64,000 nt of DNA, taken from positions 3,596,001 to 3,660,000 of the forward strand of contig NZ_LT593974.1 in NCBI RefSeq assembly GCF_900086985.1, written 5' to 3'. The translations under genes and the position numbers were made by a program. The notes beneath the pieces are model-generated. The model had not been told where the DNA came from, searched no databases, and worked only from the letters and a program-made list of their open reading frames with translations. Shown here piece after piece: positions 21,259-37,012 of this stretch; the stretch's first letter is position 1; every line of letters starts with the position of its first letter. The DNA is from Halomonas sp. HL-93 (GTDB lineage Bacteria > Pseudomonadota > Gammaproteobacteria > Pseudomonadales > Halomonadaceae).

Positions 21259-22158
21259 ATGACGCAACCGACTTGCTACCGTGGGCGTTTTGCCCCCACC
21301 CCCTCTGGCCCGCTGCATTTTGGCTCGTTGGTGGCGGCGCTGGGCAGTTATCTCGACGCACGCGCGGTGGGCGGCGAATGGCTGGTGCGAATTGAAGACA
21401 TTGACCCGCCACGTTGCCCACCAGGCGCTGACAGTATGATATTGCGCCAGCTGGAAGCATTTGGGCTCCAATGGGACGGAGCCGTTCGCTGGCAGCATGG
21501 ACGTCATGACGCTTATCAACAGGCGCTTGACGCTCTAGCCCACCAAGGGTTGGCCTATCCATGCAGCTGTTCGCGCAAACAGTGGCAAGCATTCTCGGTA
21601 TATCCAGGCTGGTGCCGCCAGGGCCTAAGTGACGCCACCCAACCGGTTGCTTGGCGGCTGCGCAGCGATTTGGCCCAACGCCCGGTCGAATGGCATGATC
21701 GCCTGTTTGGCTTTCAGCAATTCGACCCTGAAACGCTGGGCGACGTAATACTCAAACGCAAGGATTCACTTTGGGCTTACCAACTGGCAGTGGTGGTGGA
21801 TGATGCTGAGCAAGGCATTACCGATATCGTCAGGGGCTTTGATTTGCTCGACAACACCCCCTGGCAGCGCCAGCTACAAATCGCACTAGCGCTACCCGAG
21901 CCGCGTTATCTACATTTGCCATTAGTCGTGACCCCTGAGGGTCAAAAGCTTTCCAAACAAAATCTTGCGCCAGCACTCGCTGACGATGAGCGCGGCATCC
22001 GCCACCAGTTGTTTCAGGCCCTGCTGGCTCTCGACCAAGCGCTTCCCAGCGAACTTTCTCGTGAGCCAGTGACCACGCAATTACACTGGGCAGTGACCCA
22101 TTGGTCGGTGGCGCGTCTGTCACCGTCAGCGCACCGCGAATTGCCTCAGGAGGTATGA
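21259..22158 (+). CDS. gluQ: Glutamyl-Q tRNA(Asp) synthetase
   Basis: GluRS paralogue lacking the anticodon-binding domain, 299 residues. It activates glutamate and attaches it to queuosine at position 34 of tRNA-Asp. HFGS near residue 20 replaces HIGH, and KLSKQ near residue 232 replaces KMSKS. Zinc ligands appear as CSCS...YPGWC. GGAAAG precedes the ATG, immediately behind the dksA terminator. Confidence 0.93.
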   Translation: MTQPTCYRGRFAPTPSGPLHFGSLVAALGSYLDARAVGGEWLVRIEDIDPPRCPPGADSMILRQLEAFGLQWDGAVRWQHGRHDAYQQALDALAHQGLAYPCSCSRKQWQAFSVYPGWCRQGLSDATQPVAWRLRSDLAQRPVEWHDRLFGFQQFDPETLGDVILKRKDSLWAYQLAVVVDDAEQGITDIVRGFDLLDNTPWQRQLQIALALPEPRYLHLPLVVTPEGQKLSKQNLAPALADDERGIRHQLFQALLALDQALPSELSREPVTTQLHWAVTHWSVARLSPSAHRELPQEV

Positions 22159-22159
22159 C

Positions 22160-22336
22160 ATGTACGTCTACCGCATCATGCTGTTTCTGGTGTTCGGCGG
22201 CTATCTGCTCTCACCCTTGTTGATGGACGGTTGGAGCGACCCGACTGTGGCCTGGTATCGTCCCTTTGTCATTTGGGGCGGGCTAATCGCCCTAACGCTA
22301 TGGCTTGAGCAAAAAAGGAAATTAGATGAGCGTTGA
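22160..22336 (+). CDS. cbrX: Small two-helix membrane protein upstream of cbrA (CbrX-like)
   Basis: 58 residues. AGGAGG lies 6 nt before the ATG, the best ribosome site in this cluster. Two hydrophobic segments, about residues 4-21 and 35-49, are joined by a short loop with DGWSDP, and the tail EQKRKLDER is charged. The stop lies 8 nt inside cbrA, so the two genes overlap by 11 nt and cbrA translation is probably coupled. A small overlapping gene in this position (cbrX) is known in Pseudomonas. The symbol is assigned by position and form; its function is unknown. Confidence 0.8.
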   Translation: MYVYRIMLFLVFGGYLLSPLLMDGWSDPTVAWYRPFVIWGGLIALTLWLEQKRKLDER

Positions 22337-25259
22337 GGTGCTCGGTGCGCTACTTCTGGGCTTGGGCTATCTCGCCCTGCTGCTCGGCTGCGCCATGGCG
22401 GTGGAACGCGGCTGGGTACCGCTGCATATCAGCCGCCACCCCGCCGTCTACACGCTAGCGCTCGGTGTTTATGCAAGCGCCTGGGCCATTTATGGCAGCG
22501 TAGAGTTAGCCGCTAACGTAGGGTTTGGGTATCTTGCCTATTACCTCGGCGCCGCCGGTGCGTTTCTGCTTGCACCCGTCCTGCTAGTCCCTATTCAGCG
22601 TATTACCCGAACGTACCAACTCGCCTCATTGGCGGATCTATTCGCCTTTCGTTTTCGCTCCCGTTGGGCGGGCACGCTGGTGACATTTGTCAGTCTGCTG
22701 GCGGTACTGCCGCTGCTGGGCATTCAAGTCAAAACCATGAGTGAGGCCTTCAATCTCTTTACTCAAAGCCAGGCGGGGCCCACTGTAGCGCTTTCGTTTT
22801 GCACGGCAATTGCCGCTTTAGCGGTGATGCTAGGGGCTCGCCACAGCCATGTTCATAGTCGACATAACAGCTTATTGAGCACCATCGCAATCGAGTCGAT
22901 CGTGAAGTTGCTGGCGATGCTGGGGTTGGGCGCTGTGGCTCTGTGGCTGGTGTTCAGTGGCCCCGGTGATGTGCAGCAGTGGCTCGAAGGACCAGGCTAT
23001 CTTGCCCAGGCGCAAACCGCGCGTTTTGACCCCGCCCAATGGCGCACCCTACTGCTGCTGTTCTTCGCCGCCGCCTTTATGATGCCGCACCTGTTTCATA
23101 TTACCTTTGCAGAAAACCTGTCGCGACATACCCTGCTCCAGGCAAGCTGGACCCTGCCGCTATTTTTATTGCTGATGGCCTTGCCCGTCCCACTGATTTG
23201 GTGGGCCGCACAGTCCGTTAACGATGAGATACCCATGAGCGCCTACGCGGCCTATGCGTTAAGCGAGCACTGGTGGGTCGGGGCCTTGGCGTTTATTGGC
23301 GGTTTAGCCGCCGCCAGTGGCACCATGATGCTAATTGCCCTGGCGCTTTCCGGCATGGTGCTCAATCACATCGTACTCGTAGCGAGGCCACCCGAAGCGC
23401 GTAGCGACCTGTATGGGTGGCTATTGTGGCTACGCCGGGGGCTGGTGGTCGGGGTGATTATAAGCGGCTGGCTGTTTTACCAATGGATTGGCCGTCACCA
23501 TCCGCTAACCAACCTGGGGCTGGCCGCCTTCGTGGGAATGGCGCAGTGTTTGCCAGGCATGCTAGCGCTGCTCTACTGGCCGGGAGCCAATCGCAAAGGC
23601 ATGGTGACCGGTCTGATTGGTGGCATTGCCGTCTGGCTATGGTGGCTATGGCTCCCCCTTGTGGCAGGCTATGCGCCCCCGGCCTTACCCTTAACGCCGC
23701 TAACGCCCGCTGACGCCCCCGCCTGGTATGGTGTCACGCTGCTTTCTTTGTCGCTTAACATCCTATTATTGATTGTCGTGTCGCTGTTTACGCGCACGTC
23801 TGAAGGCGAAAAATCCGCTGCCGAAGCCTGCTCCGTCGATGCGGTAATCCGCTCAAAACGTTTACCGCTGGAAGCCGCCACGGCAGGTGACTTCTCAGCA
23901 CACCTAGCCCAGGCGCTGGGGGATGATGCCGCCCGCCGTGAAGTCGACCGCGCCCTCAAGGCGCTCAACCTGACGCCCCAGGAGCGTCGCCCCTACGCGC
24001 TACGCCGCCTACGCGACCGTATCCAGGCAAATCTTTCGGGGTTAATGGGACCCTCGGTGGCGCGCGACATCGTCGACCGCTACCTGCCCTACCGCCACGA
24101 CGATGCACCGATTACCGACGACATTCATTTTGTGGAAAGCCGCCTGGAAGCCTATCGATCGAGGCTTACGGGGCTTGCGCGAGAGCTTGACGGCCTGCGC
24201 CGTCACCACCGTCAAACGCTTGCCTATCTACCCGTCGGGCTTTGCGTCCTCGGGGACGACGACGAGCTGGTAATGTGGAATCAGGCGCTTTCACAGCTTT
24301 CCGGCATCAGCGGCGAAAGTGTCATTGGCTCGCGGCGGGATAGTCTTCCCGATCCCTGGCCCAAACTGCTGGGGAGCGTACTTAGCGAAGGCTCTTCACC
24401 ACTGTATAAGCAAGCGGTGCAGCTACACGGTAAGGACTACTTTCTAACACTTCACATAGCAGTACTCAGCGGTCATGACAGCCGCGGCGGTAGCGTCATC
24501 CTGGTGGAAGACCATACCGAGATGAAATGGCTGGAAGATGAGCTCGTCCACGCCGCCCGCTTAGCCTCTATTGGCCAACTGGCCGCAGGCGTCGCCCATG
24601 AGATTGGCAACCCGATTACCGGCATTTCATCGCTGGCGCAAAACCTGCGCTATGACACCCAGGACCCTGCCTTACTAGAGACCGCGGACCATATTCAGCA
24701 GTTGACCCAGCGTGTCACCAAAATCGTCAATTCGTTGGTCGGTTTTGCGCATGCGGGAGGCCCCACGCCTGCGCTACCCAGCTCGCCGGTTACCCTTAAA
24801 TCGATCACAGACGATGCCTTACACTTGATCCACCTCGCCCGCTCGGGCGAGGATGTGACATTCACCAATGCCTGCGCAGAAGCGCTTGTGGTGCAAGGTG
24901 ATGCCCAGCGCTTAACCCAGGTGATGGTTAATTTGCTGAGCAATGCGCGAGATGCTTGCGCACCAACAGGCACCGTGTACATATCAGCAGGTGAGCAGGC
25001 GGGCCAAGCGTGGTGGTGCGTTACCGACGACGGCCAAGGCATTGACCCAACGATTCGTGATCACTTATTTGAGCCGTTTACTACCACGAAAGCGGCAGGT
25101 GAAGGCACTGGACTGGGATTATCACTGGCGTATCAAATTATCAATGAGCACCAAGGTAGAATAGAGGTGGCTTCGCCACCGCCCGGAGCGTCTCGCGGCA
25201 CGGCCATTATCCTCTGGCTACCGCTTTACCAACAGGATGATCAGCCGACCCATGTCTAG
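22326..25259 (+). CDS. cbrA: Sensor histidine kinase CbrA with SLC5-like transporter domain
   Basis: 977-residue hybrid of a sodium:solute-symporter-like membrane part (about 13 helices, residues 1-500), a linker/STAC-type region (about 520-600), a PAS-like domain (about 630-730) and a kinase core. The phospho-acceptor is His758 in [13 protein letters not shown] box [10 protein letters not shown] lies near 870 and G box GEGTGLGL near 925. CbrA senses the carbon/nitrogen state and phosphorylates CbrB. In Pseudomonas the transporter part is linked to histidine uptake. It overlaps the small gene before it and cbrB after it (8 nt), indicating one tightly coupled operon. Confidence 0.93.
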
Positions 25260-26640
25260 GATTCTGATTGTTGAAGACGAAGCAATTATTCGCAGCGCAC
25301 TTAAGCGTTTGCTTGAGCGCCACGACTATGAAGTCTGTGAAGCGAGCAGTGCTGAAGAAGCATCTCAGTTCGAACTGCCTGGCTTTGACCTCATCATCAG
25401 CGACCTGCGCCTGCCAGGCGAGCCAGGTACCAGCCTGATCCAAGCGGCTGCCCCGGCCCCCGTTCTGATCATGACGAGCTATGCCAGCATGCGCTCAGCC
25501 GTCGACTCTCTCAAACAGGGCGCCGTGGATTACGTGGCCAAACCCTTTGACCACGCGGAATTATTAGAGACCGTCGCGCGAATTCTGCATCAGCAGTCGA
25601 TGCAGCACAGTGCACCGCCCGACATCACCGATGGAGGGGGCGGGCGCCAAACCATGATTGGCAACTGCACCGCGATGCAACTGGTGTATACGCGTATTCG
25701 TAAAACCGCCCCGGCCGACGTCACGGTGCTGATTCTGGGCGAATCCGGCACCGGCAAAGAACTCGTGGCCCGGGCCATTCACCAACAAAGCAAACGGGCC
25801 AAGGCCCCACTGATTTGCGTCAACTGCGCTGCTATTCCCGAAACGCTGATTGAATCGGAGCTATTTGGTCACGAGAAAGGCGCTTTTACCGGCGCAAGCG
25901 CTGCCCGCACCGGGCTGGTGGAAGCCGCCGATGGCGGCACATTATTTCTGGACGAAATCGGCGAGCTGCCTCTCGACGCTCAAGCGCGACTGCTACGTGT
26001 GTTGCAGGAAGGCGAAATCCGTAAAATCGGCTCAGTGGAAACCCGCCATGTGGATGTCCGCCTGATCGCTGCGACCCACCGCGACTTGCGCGCCCTCTCC
26101 AAAAGCGGTGATTTCCGGCTGGACCTGTATTACCGCCTAAACGTCATGCAAATAGAGCTGCCGCCGCTGCGCGAGCGTGAAGACGACGTGCTGGAAATTG
26201 CCGATATTTTGCTCGACAAAGCCTGCCAGCGCCACGAACGCCCTGGGCTACGTTTATCCCGAGCCGCGCGCCAGGAATTGCGCGACTACCCCTGGCCAGG
26301 CAACGTGCGCGAATTGGAAAATGCCCTTGAACGAGGCGTGATCCTGGCCGAAGGCCATTTGATTCACCCCGATGACCTAGGGCTTGCGCCTGCGCTCAAC
26401 CGTCCGCTAACGCCAGTAAGTGCCGCTCCGACGCTAAGTAACCCAGACGCCACTCAACCCAGCGCCGAGGAGGATGACCTTTCGCTGGAAGACTATTTTC
26501 AACACTTTGTTCTTGAGCACCAGGATCAAATGAGCGAAACCGAGCTGGCGCAAAAACTCGGAATTAGTCGCAAAAATTTATGGGAAAGACGCCAACGGCT
26601 GGGTATACCGCGCAAGAAGACGGCGCGGCGCCCCCACTAG
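25252..26640 (+). CDS. cbrB: Sigma-54-dependent response regulator CbrB
   Basis: NtrC-type activator, 462 residues. The receiver domain (1-120) has phospho-acceptor Asp51 in ISDLRLPG. The AAA+ domain has Walker A GESGTGKE near 163, the sigma-54 contact loop GAFTGA near 210, and the arginine finger region after. A Fis-type helix-turn-helix (about 425-455, [24 protein letters not shown]) closes it. The ATG at 25252 lies inside the cbrA stop region and starts [10 protein letters not shown]. The downstream sigma-54 promoter at 26849-26864 is its obvious target. Confidence 0.95.
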
Positions 26641-26848
26641 CCACGCCCACCACCGGGCCTACAACTAACGTCTAATACACTGATTTATCTAACAAATATC
26701 CACACCCCTCGCTACCCACACATTGTTACCTTCCCACACACCCAGGCGCGCAAGCAGCCAAAAAACAGGTAACACTTTTAGGCTGCAATAGTTCCTCGGC
26801 ATACGCGTAAAATGTTAAGCCACTGAAATTCATAATTTATCAAACGGC
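26641..26848. promoter_or_regulatory. Upstream activating region of the CrcZ-like RNA (candidate CbrB sites)
   Basis: AT-rich, no gene. It carries TGTTAC (26724-26729), the inverse GTAACA (26769-26774) and TGTTAA (26813-26818), at about 45-base spacing, 75-125 bases upstream of the sigma-54 promoter. From memory, the Pseudomonas CbrB site is TGTTAC-N14-GTAACA. Here the half-sites match but the first pair is 39 bases apart, so binding is a hypothesis. Confidence 0.45.
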
Positions 26849-26864
26849 TGGCACGGCGAGTGCA
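26849..26864 (+). promoter_or_regulatory. Sigma-54 promoter of the CrcZ-like RNA
   Basis: TGGCACggcgagTGCA: the invariant GG (26850-26851) and GC (26862-26863) are exactly 10 bases apart, and the -24 element is a full TGGCAC consensus match. It lies 209 bases after cbrB. Transcription should begin near 26875. Confidence 0.85.
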
Positions 26865-26910
26865 GTATATCTGGGTAAGAAAAACAAACTGGGCATCGCG
26901 GTGAGTCGCT

Positions 26911-27119
26911 AACAAAAACAACATGACATCGCCCAAACCTGAGCCACAACAAAAACAACAGGGCCAGGCAGAGATAACGGTACTAACAAAAACAACTGGC
27001 CTGTATCTCGTTACTTGCTTGCGCTAAGCAGAATAAGCGCTTTGAACAATAATAAAATCAGGCAAGTGCCCAAAAAGGACGCGACGTACACCAAGAGATC
27101 TGCGCCCCAACAAAAACAA
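26911..27119 (+). repeat. Four exact AACAAAAACAA motifs
   Basis: Copies at 26911-26921, 26948-26958, 26985-26995 and 27109-27119. The first three are spaced exactly 37 bases apart while the sequence between them differs. Probable Hfq/Crc docking sites within the RNA. Confidence 0.85.
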
Positions 27120-27314
27120 TAGCAGTGAGTGTGTACACCCCGGACCCAACAACAACTCACCGGGGGGAGAAAAGTTCGCGGTTGGATTATTGTTTTGAAT
27201 ACGAGGCGGTCGGAATCCACGTGATTGCCACGCCTACCGACTGCGGTGCGTATTCAGGGCGATGTGCCATCATGAAGAAAAATAGCAGCAACGGAAGCTG
27301 ATTGTCCGCTTTAT

Positions 27315-27341
27315 AGGGGAGGCCCTCTTAGCCTCCCCTTT
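27315..27341 (+). terminator. Terminator of the CrcZ-like RNA
   Basis: AGGGGAGGC / GCCTCCCCT 9-bp GC-rich stem with a 7-nt loop, followed by a short T run (TTTCCGTGTTT). The weak T run may allow some read-through into pcnB, which starts 130 bases on. Confidence 0.7.
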
Positions 27342-27473
27342 CCGTGTTTGGCTACTATGTAAACGACACAATCCACTCGAGACTTTGCAAGCATCAAGGG
27401 GTCGGCTACACTCAGCGACTTATCGCTTACGTCATGGCCAATTTTTCGATATCCTGCGAGTCGATACCGTCGC

Positions 27474-28859
27474 ATGTTCAAAGGATTAACCCGTTTATTA
27501 CACAGCCCGGGAGAGCAATTGAACCCCCTGCTCGAACCCCAACAAAGCGCGTCAAGCGTGCTTAGCCCCCGCGTAATTCCTCGCTCCGAGCACCCTGTTT
27601 CTCGCAAGCAGATCAGTGACTCTGCCTTAAAAGTGCTCTATCGCCTTAACGGCGCGGGGTTTGATGCTTACCTGGTAGGCGGCTGCATTCGTGATGCCTT
27701 GTTGGGCAAAATACCCAAAGATTTTGACGTTGCCACCAATGCAACCCCAGAGCAGGTTCGCGACCTTTTCCGCAATTCACGCATGATTGGTCGGCGTTTT
27801 CGCATCGTCCATGTGCGTTTTGGCCGTGAAGTCATCGAAGTCACCACTTTCCGCGGTAAGCCTCAAGACGAGCATGGCGACCATATCGCCCATCAGTCCG
27901 ACGACGGCCTCCTGCTGCGTGATAACGTATGGGGCAATATCGAAGAAGATGCCCTACGGCGCGACTTCACGGTCAATGCGCTGTATTACAATATCGCCGA
28001 CTTCACCATCCACGACTTCGCCAACGGCGCTCAGGACATTGACTCGCGGACACTGCGTTTGATCGGTGACCCGACCACCCGCTACCGGGAAGACCCGGTG
28101 CGCATGCTGCGTGCCGTGCGTTTCGCCGCCAAGCTTGGCTTCACCATCGAAGCTGAGACCGAAGCGCCCATGTATGACCTGGCGCCGCTGTTGCTTAGTA
28201 TTCCCCCGGCACGACTGTTTGATGAAGCGCTCAAGCTGTTTATGTCTGGCCATGGGCTGGTGACCTTCAGAATGCTGAGCCACTATGGGTTGTTTGGCAT
28301 GCTGTTTCCAGAAGCCGAAGAAGCCATGGCCGATGCCGCCTGGGCGGAAGAGCTCATTGAGCAGGCGCTGGCCAATACCGATAAACGCATTGCTGAAGAG
28401 CGCCCCGTTACCCCAGCTTTCCTGCTGGCGGCATTTTTGTGGGCCCCCGTTGTTCACCGCCAGGCAGAACTCGAGAGCGAAGGCATGCCGGCTATTCCCG
28501 CGCTGCAAGCTGCCGCACAGCAAGTCGTCACACGGCAGCTTCAACACATATCCATTCCTAAACGTTTCGGCATGCCGATGCGCGACATTTGGGAACTGCA
28601 GGGGCGTTTACCCCTTCGCCGTGGCAAAAAAGCGTTCCAAACCCGCGAACACCCACGCTTCCGCGCCGCTTATGATTTGCTGTTGCTGCGCGAGCAGGCA
28701 GGGGAAATTCCGAGCGGCTTGGGCGACTGGTGGGACGCCTTCCAGAAAGGCGACGAACACGATCAACGTCGGTTGTTACAAAAGGTAGGGGGCGATCCCG
28801 CCAGTCAAGGCGACCGTCGCCGTAAGCGGCGTCGCAAACCGCGCAAAAGCGAAGAGTGA
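27474..28859 (+). CDS. pcnB: Poly(A) polymerase I
   Basis: Adds 3' poly(A) tails that mark RNAs for decay, 461 residues. Nucleotidyltransferase motif GG at 69-70 and catalytic DFD at 83-85. RRFRIVHVRFG, the second-half RRDFTVNALYYN and REDPVRMLRAVRFAAKL follow. The basic C-terminal tail (RRRKRRRKPRKSEE) is typical. Starting at 27474 gives an N-terminus like that of Pseudomonas PcnB, although the ribosome site is weak. It overlaps or abuts folK. Confidence 0.93.
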   Translation: MFKGLTRLLHSPGEQLNPLLEPQQSASSVLSPRVIPRSEHPVSRKQISDSALKVLYRLNGAGFDAYLVGGCIRDALLGKIPKDFDVATNATPEQVRDLFRNSRMIGRRFRIVHVRFGREVIEVTTFRGKPQDEHGDHIAHQSDDGLLLRDNVWGNIEEDALRRDFTVNALYYNIADFTIHDFANGAQDIDSRTLRLIGDPTTRYREDPVRMLRAVRFAAKLGFTIEAETEAPMYDLAPLLLSIPPARLFDEALKLFMSGHGLVTFRMLSHYGLFGMLFPEAEEAMADAAWAEELIEQALANTDKRIAEERPVTPAFLLAAFLWAPVVHRQAELESEGMPAIPALQAAAQQVVTRQLQHISIPKRFGMPMRDIWELQGRLPLRRGKKAFQTREHPRFRAAYDLLLLREQAGEIPSGLGDWWDAFQKGDEHDQRRLLQKVGGDPASQGDRRRKRRRKPRKSEE

Positions 28860-36620: not shown

Positions 36621-36890
36621 TTAGCGGCGTAGACCTAGACGCTGAATCAGGGACTGATAGCGTTCGAAATCTTTACGCTTCAGGTAATCCAGCAGCTTAC
36701 GACGCTGGTTTACCATACGGATCAGACCACGACGCGAGTGGTGATCCTGCTTGTTGGTCTTGAAGTGGTCCTGCAGGCCGTTGATATTGGCGCTCAGCAG
36801 GGCGACCTGCACTTCAGGTGATCCGGTGTCGCTCTCGCCGCGGCCGTATTCGTTGACGATTTCGGCCTTCTTTTCAGCGGTTAATGCCAT
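36621..36890 (-). CDS. rpsO: 30S ribosomal protein S15
   Basis: 89 residues, standard length. Binds 16S rRNA in the platform. [50 protein letters not shown] are diagnostic. In E. coli, S15 represses its own translation through a leader pseudoknot. The leader here (36891-37012) has an inverted repeat GAGAC...GTCTC, but I could not establish a pseudoknot. Confidence 0.98.
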
Positions 36891-37012
36891 CTGTCTCTCC
36901 AGTAAGCAATATGCCTAACAATGAATGGGTGAGACCACGCATATTTGCAGTCTCAAGTTGCTATATTTCACGTACAATTTTCGCGCAGATCGCTGCATCC
37001 TTGCAACATTTC

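Follow-up and report, generated by a model that had tools for sequence, protein, structure and literature searches.

What is encoded in the 833-nt intergenic gap between cbrB, which ends at position 26640, and pcnB, which starts at 27474, in Halomonas sp. HL-93? An original prediction placed there a CrcZ-type RNA acting as a sponge for Hfq and Crc. This was followed up in the window (the whole 64-kb stretch of DNA analysed, G000:C1:3596001-3660000 of the complete 4.14-Mb genome) and in related genomes. In our opinion, sequence comparisons point to an RNA whose mode of action resembles that of the CrcZ-type Hfq/Crc decoys, at a probability of about 0.88.

A predicted RNA between cbrB and pcnB

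The genes, regulatory sites and predicted RNA of the locus are given below in coordinates of the window.

21259..22158, plus strand: gluQ-like gene, an ORF upstream of cbrA (we take gluQ to be its name)
22326..25259, plus strand: cbrA, histidine kinase (HisKA and HATPase_c) preceded by a long N-terminal region
25237..26640, plus strand: cbrB, response regulator and sigma-54 activator (Response_reg and Sigma54_activat)
26724..26729, plus strand: CbrB subsite F, TGTTAC, located 125 nt upstream of the promoter below
26769..26774, plus strand: CbrB subsite R, GTAACA, located 80 nt upstream of this promoter
26849..26863, plus strand: -24/-12 sigma-54 promoter, TGGCACGGCGAGTGC
26875..27339, plus strand: predicted CrcZ-like sponge RNA, ~465 nt, both ends placed by promoter and hairpin
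27474..28859, plus strand: pcnB, poly(A) polymerase (TIGR01942, 533 bits vs a cut-off of 305.65)

Orthologues of cbrA with 93% and 68% identity were found in the relatives G080 and G020, respectively, and the identity of CbrB is 62–93% within the family and, among the matches listed, at least 60% in the rows of the order. The name SLC5 for the N-terminal part of CbrA follows PMC8871633.

Coordinates and shuffles confirmed that the gap contains a sigma-54 promoter, repeated motifs and a closing hairpin, and the RNA, earlier proposed to be about 470 nt long from 26875, is placed by promoter and hairpin at 26875–27339, a predicted length of about 465 nt. Its start fits the start site expected ~12 nt past the -12 element. 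Bare sigma-54 patterns of the TGGCACGGCGAGTGC type are not rare (3 in the window vs 1.1 expected), so the evidential weight of this site lies in its position and conservation. In PMC6296734, TGTTAC and GTAACA are the subsites F and R of P. putida CbrB; both subsites in the window, missing from the original prediction, match them exactly.

Eight CA motifs of the AAnAAnAA type, as putative Hfq sites, are distributed along the RNA.

26877..26884, plus strand: CA motif 1, AAnAAnAA
26911..26921, plus strand: CA motif 2, AACAAAAACAA
26948..26958, plus strand: CA motif 3, AACAAAAACAA, site of the best local alignment with Rfam CrcZ (its positions 58-77), 12.4 bits
26985..26995, plus strand: CA motif 4, AACAAAAACAA
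27045..27055, plus strand: CA motif 5, AACAATAATAA
27109..27119, plus strand: CA motif 6, AACAAAAACAA
27148..27155, plus strand: CA motif 7
27275..27282, plus strand: CA motif 8, within the conserved 3' part

The gap has AAnAAnAA 8 times in the sense orientation and once in the antisense one, vs 0.98 expected, and a count of 8 was reached by 0 of 1000 dinucleotide shuffles. When 833-nt stretches were scanned (step 100, both strands), those that did not cover most of the gap reached a count of 3 at most. The longer AACAAAAACAA is found in 4 copies in the 64-kb window, all of them inside the gap (0.04 expected), and in 6 copies in the whole 4.14-Mb genome; inspection of the remaining two genomic sites outside the gap gave no lead. 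It might be supposed that such A-rich repeats reflect compositional drift in non-coding DNA or belong to a small coding gene, and there are indeed several short ORFs in the gap, the longest of which on the plus strand within the RNA comprises 58 aa with a GTG start. Drift is refuted by the above shuffles and by the strand asymmetry of 8 to 1, while coding is contradicted by changes in the 3' part that preserve base pairs and by an ATG at 27272 that is not kept in relatives. We give this explanation practically no credence.

The single-sequence fold of the predicted RNA is better than those of shuffled sequences (z-score -3.14), and the CA motifs before 27160 appear by eye to be situated mostly in loops of this modelled structure. 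In an RNAalifold consensus of 68 gaps, motif positions were unpaired in 4116 of 4184 cases, vs 87% of all columns. This exposure is little informative, because the 5' half is mostly unpaired and the covariation term is positive (4.5). Elsewhere in the window, an S15 ribosomal leader (RF00114), an ordinary element, was recognised on the minus strand at 36834–36958.

Occurrence in the family and the order and comparison with CrcZ

CbrB (E ≤1e-120) was found in 114 of the 151 genomes of the family to which the window belongs, and the region downstream of cbrB was examined in all 114. In 113 of them, pcnB follows 672–1138 nt past cbrB; the exception is L103, without pcnB within reach downstream of cbrB, a longer stretch of which (L222) contains 3 scattered motifs on the plus strand. 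The 113 gaps bear 6–11 sense motifs each, on average 8.4, vs 1.1 for the antisense strand and 0.9 for shuffles. The comparison of this gap across Halomonadaceae had been proposed earlier, with poor conservation of the motifs in related genomes named as an argument against the RNA; the motifs are conserved, and thus the prediction withstood this comparison.

Both exact CbrB subsites, F and R, are present in 113/113 CbrB-positive family gaps, mostly ~125 and ~80 nt upstream of the sigma-54 promoter, and they occupy similar positions in many non-halomonad families. When up to 3 mismatches were allowed, a sigma-54-like site located 20–90 nt before a CA motif was found in 113/113 CbrB-positive gaps and, by the same rule, in 36/36 CbrB-negative ones; in the control, five single-base shuffles of each gap, such sites appeared in 3–13 of 113 and 1–4 of 36 gaps, respectively.

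The proposal of a halomonad version of the RNA is supported by 113/114 family genomes, but the predicted RNA is not limited to halomonads and is spread over the order. CbrB (E ≤1e-130) was detected in 224 of 293 order genomes and 97 of 118 genera. For closer study, 55 order regions were chosen by hand among the matches listed so as to span many families, and pcnB was found downstream of cbrB in 47 of them. Six of these 47 gaps belong to family f21, whose three tested members are CrcZ of the known type by Rfam. In 42/47 gaps, three or more CA motifs come after a sigma-54 site; the motif count is above shuffles in 45/47 (it was not significant in L180 and L197), and both exact CbrB subsites are present in 38/47, representing 23 of 26 families. 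Among the 8 regions without pcnB, 5 keep the motifs, three of these being on cut contigs; L156, L176 and L185 (3 of the 55) have neither pcnB nor motifs.

An independent scan of named species genomes used only the enhancer and promoter, the CA motif being excluded from the pattern. At least 118 stretches matched, 80 of which were examined; they gave 86 matches, 83 of them with 400 nt downstream. At least 3 CA motifs were present in 76 of these 83 on the sense strand and in none on the antisense strand. In stretches that were often cut, pcnB was found downstream of 68 and cbrB upstream of 64 of the 86 matches. The genera represented include Vreelandella, Halomonas, Litchfieldella, Chromohalobacter, Oceanospirillum, Marinobacter, Marinobacterium, Neptuniibacter, Nitrincola, Bermanella, Thalassolituus, Endozoicomonas, Motiliproteus, Pseudomonas and Thiopseudomonas. 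Matches in records of Bacteroidia and Lentisphaerae (L258 and L267) contained only 1 motif each and look like chance or contamination.

The position of pcnB next downstream in 113/114 family and 47/55 order regions, together with a closing hairpin that has a weak U-tract, could also mean a sigma-54-driven leader or read-through transcript controlling mainly pcnB, in which the A-rich motifs act in cis (e.g., in Hfq control of poly(A) polymerase) and not as a decoy in trans. We consider this improbable: the conserved hairpin closes the RNA ~134 nt before pcnB, unit copies stand in tandem in 7/47 order gaps, and units occur in L235 and L284, where neither pcnB nor cbrB was found in 8 kb. The decoy reading is preferred here as well.

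The tandem arrangements comprise two or three enhancer-promoter-CA units at the cbrB-pcnB locus (L159, L177, L178, L183, L194, L195 and L200), and further ones were met in the scan of named genomes (L252, L254, L255, L270 and L290); on sequence grounds, these are local CrcY/CrcX-like duplications. Enhancer-promoter-CA units lacking both pcnB and cbrB (>300 bits, tblastn, 8 kb examined) are those of L235 and L284, and another, with no cbrB or pcnB found nearby in the 450 nt examined downstream, was observed in L279. The sources are Allopseudospirillum, an Oceanospirillaceae MAG and Endozoicomonas, and all three units are candidate dispersed copies.

A search with the Rfam CrcZ model (RF01675), suggested together with the original prediction, turned out negative: the best score was 12.4 bits vs a gathering threshold of 95, so by the covariance model the RNA is not a member of this family. 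There was no match at the gathering threshold in the whole window, and a relaxed E-value gave short A-rich matches only. The positive controls, Pseudomonadaceae-type L163–L165, scored 309–351 bits, while the other 10 of 13 sources, including the halomonad loci L005, L122 and L143, were unrecognised by the model. Since the Rfam model misses halomonad loci, what the halomonad RNA has in common with CrcZ is the principle of CA repeats and the regulatory region, but not the sequence as a whole. 

With CrcZ, CrcY and CrcX of Pseudomonas and Azotobacter, the RNA has in common the cbrB-pcnB location (that of CrcZ), CbrB subsites, a sigma-54 promoter, multiple CA motifs, a length of ~400–470 nt and the presence of Crc and Hfq. 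Unlike CrcZ, it fails the Rfam model, carries an almost invariant hairpin in its 3' part that is absent from Pseudomonadaceae-type loci and has outlived CbrA and CbrB in some halomonad genera. At the sequence level, the earlier assignment to the CrcZ type is upheld with respect to synteny, CbrB subsites, the sigma-54 site, sense CA motifs, Crc and Hfq, and motifs at catabolic start codons, but not with respect to Rfam membership, and the extra 3' domain sets the RNA apart. The RsmA/CsrA-type decoy RNAs, such as RsmY and RsmZ, differ in protein, motif and regulation. The principle is the same, a regulatory RNA titrating a translational repressor, as described in PMC8395346.

A 2022 review (PMC8871633) regards CbrAB as restricted to its Pseudomonas family and names Pseudomonas and Azotobacter as the sole hosts; the order-wide occurrence contradicts this exclusivity. 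In the openly licensed PMC literature, as far as its text was available, no description of a CrcZ-like RNA of Halomonas was found (subscription papers could differ), and nothing was found in it on CrcZ in Marinobacter or Oceanospirillales or on CbrA/CbrB in Halomonadaceae. As a separate observation, the CbrB subsites ahead of crcZ fall within matches to the Rfam family P36 (RF01679, "Pseudomonas sRNA") in L164:177-237 and L165:205-265, with F and R at 182/204 and 210/230; what P36 describes may be a conserved enhancer and not an sRNA.

The 3' domain and its helices

The most conserved stretch of the RNA is its 3' part, at about 27176–27340, with the following elements.

27189..27203, plus strand: 5' arm of a nearly invariant helix, ATTGTTTTGAATACG
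27206..27211, plus strand: 5' arm of the inner helix, GCGGTC, pairing with 27239–27244
27239..27244, plus strand: 3' arm of the inner helix, GACTGC
27249..27263, plus strand: 3' arm of the nearly invariant helix, CGTATTCAGGGCGAT
27315..27339, plus strand: closing hairpin, presumed terminator, followed by TTCCGTGT, a weak U-tract

The pairing was tabulated for 42 rows picked for diversity. In the outer helix, ATTGTTTTGAATACG pairs with CGTATTCARGGCGAT through 15 pairs, 9 of which are invariant and none changed on both sides, and 99.5% of cells are paired over the 42 sequences. In the inner helix GCGGTC/GACTGC, both partners vary in 3 of the 6 pairs. Taken together, the two helices pair in 99.1% of 882 cells, vs at most 45% when the arms are slid. 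In the closing hairpin, changes of GGGG/CCCC to GAGG/CCTC retain pairing; a strict rule recovered this hairpin in 21 of 30 gaps scanned, 458–536 nt from the start, and a simple terminator scan did not report the one at 27315–27339. A small peptide gene in the 3' domain, beginning with the ATG at 27272, was tried as a candidate and rejected: the T of this ATG is C in many relatives.

Of the 149 family gaps (113 CbrB-positive and 36 CbrB-negative), 147 contain the 3' domain; it was detected by pattern in 145 and by model in two more, L037 and L140, and is absent from L214 and L215. When the model was applied to 54 of the 55 order loci (L202, with 424 nt, was left out), one weak match of 23.4 bits was obtained in L178 (L178:1509-1601, minus strand of the stored locus), on the sense strand of the last of three units. 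The outer helix is kept there in a different sequence, and because of this sense-strand match the domain is not strictly family-specific; L178 may contain its distant relative outside the family. The 80 named loci gave 31 clear matches (E <1e-6), their sources being Halomonas-type genera, Chromohalobacter and Oceanospirillum only. No second copy of the domain was found in the HL-93 genome.

Such conservation of the 3' part, with covarying pairs in its inner helix, would also be expected of an Hfq-dependent base-pairing sRNA, in which the 3' hairpin would be the active part and the A-rich stretch would serve only to recruit Hfq. By eye, GAUUAUUGUU of the 3' part is complementary to CA sequences of the AACAAUAAU type, as this explanation would have it, but in the predicted structure this stretch is largely inside the 15-bp helix. 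The families outside keep the CA repeats mostly without the 3' domain (one weak match in 54 loci), and seven to eight Hfq sites exceed the needs of an sRNA. A base-pairing sRNA seems to us unlikely. If the RNA is a decoy, as we prefer to think, the conserved 3' hairpin probably stabilises it or binds a further factor.

Crc, Hfq, putative targets and the loss of CbrA/CbrB

Both proteins needed for a decoy of this type are encoded in HL-93. The Crc homologue is situated at 4017970–4018734 of the contig, and its top PDB matches, above other exonucleases, are 2myi and the P. aeruginosa Crc structures 4jg3 and 4f1r; 2myi is labelled exodeoxyribonuclease III, and its aligned sequence is closely like Crc. 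Hfq has P. aeruginosa Hfq as its best match, with a nearly identical core and with Phe in place of the P. aeruginosa Tyr in SIYLVNG. A Crc homologue was found in 151/151 family genomes, an internal stop within the match being noted in five rows among the matches listed. Loss of Crc together with CbrB was considered and ruled out by this universal presence.

A CA motif combined with GGA and ATG occurs 35 times in the genome, at 30 distinct starts; a scrambled motif of the same composition gave 10 such sites, including one within a real site, and the reversed pattern 1. ORFs of at least 40 aa begin at 28 of the 30 starts, and all 28 were scanned with Pfam. Solute-binding proteins account for 9 of them (6 DctP-type and 3 other) and enzymes plausibly of carbon metabolism for 12, both being raw counts. 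The 12 enzymes are Gfo/Idh, alcohol dehydrogenase, three short-chain dehydrogenases, aldose epimerase, class V aminotransferase, enoyl-CoA hydratase, pyruvate kinase, KDPG aldolase, flavin monooxygenase and a gluconolactonase-like protein. The remaining ORFs correspond to malic enzyme (with an internal site), COX3, one TPR protein and 4 proteins without a family, three of which are 48–55 aa long. According to PMC6292655, one of two eda homologues of A. vinelandii is an Hfq-Crc target, and the KDPG aldolase gene of HL-93 likewise bears a CA motif. A-rich leaders can also have other roles. The three ORFs of 48–55 aa, each with a strong CA motif and a Shine-Dalgarno sequence and without Pfam matches, lie within 6 kb in L343:629-6271.

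The following mechanism may be proposed. When preferred carbon is exhausted, CbrB would bind TGTTAC and GTAACA and activate the sigma-54 polymerase at 26849–26863, as the conservation of these sites suggests. In the RNA thus formed, most CA motifs would lie in loops of the predicted fold and, judging from the motif, the proteins and the work on Pseudomonas, each could load an Hfq hexamer through its distal face together with Crc. Hfq and Crc would then be drawn off the A-rich leaders of mRNAs for solute-binding proteins and catabolic enzymes, permitting their translation. If this reading holds, titration of Hfq/Crc by RNA is an old carbon-preference switch across much of the order, and the RNA locus offers a single place to test for relieving carbon repression. 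This order includes marine oil degraders and halomonads used for the production of bioplastic and ectoine.

CbrB fell below the threshold of E 1e-120 in 37 of the 151 family genomes, and in none of these 37 was a CbrA orthologue found, the best CbrA matches being paralogues with 31–35% identity in the N-terminal region. In 36 of the 37, pcnB was located, and a gluQ homologue stands directly upstream of the RNA gap in 34 of these 36 loci (tblastn); it was not seen at L136, which is cut, and L214. All 36 gaps retain 5–11 CA motifs and a sigma-54-like site, which has at most 2 mismatches in 29 of them, L214 and L121 being among the weakest. Since the RNA persists in these genomes, CbrB is not needed for its retention. 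Both CbrB subsites together were found in 0 of the 36 gaps, with 2 stray single matches.

The palindrome TGCAC-N7-GTGCA, which we take to be the NtrC-type consensus, occurs upstream of the sigma-54 site with at most 1 mismatch in 8/36 CbrB-less vs 0/113 CbrB-positive gaps, including three exact copies in genus g15. When 2 mismatches are allowed, it is found in 29/36 CbrB-less gaps (3.3 in shuffles) and 25/113 CbrB-positive ones (10.8 in shuffles), the controls being shuffles of single bases; genomes belonging to the same genus are not independent of one another. Within each genus, the palindromes are at similar distances, and NtrC is present in 41/41 genomes tested. NrsZ of Pseudomonas, presumably not a CA-repeat RNA at the pcnB locus, deserves mention with regard to the CbrB-less genera. 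It is a sigma-54 RNA under NtrC, as stated in PMC8395346, but originates in the intergenic region adjoining ntrC.

In genus g2 (L207–L209) and g7 (L220), gluQ adjoins cbrB with no cbrA there, and in G001 of g2, the one g2/g7 genome tested, CbrA is absent genome-wide. This standing of cbrB without an adjacent cbrA suggests that CbrA was lost first. On the PcnB tree (156 rows, with one short row omitted; built by a quick method, many of its forks being weak), the presence and absence of CbrB needs 3 changes by parsimony, and G105, which lacks CbrB, is grouped with a relative that has it at an SH-aLRT of 100. A tentative scenario, to which we give slightly less than an even chance, is that in several halomonad genera the carbon-starvation decoy outlived CbrA/CbrB, with CbrA lost first, CbrB lost about three times and NtrC-type sites of the nitrogen-starvation regulator replacing those of CbrB. 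This handover to NtrC is proposed from the binding-site sequences. The CbrAB-less genera would then offer a natural experiment in the way a regulatory RNA changes its master. As a minor observation, CbrB of g7 aligns to residue 409 at most, its C-terminal part being diverged.
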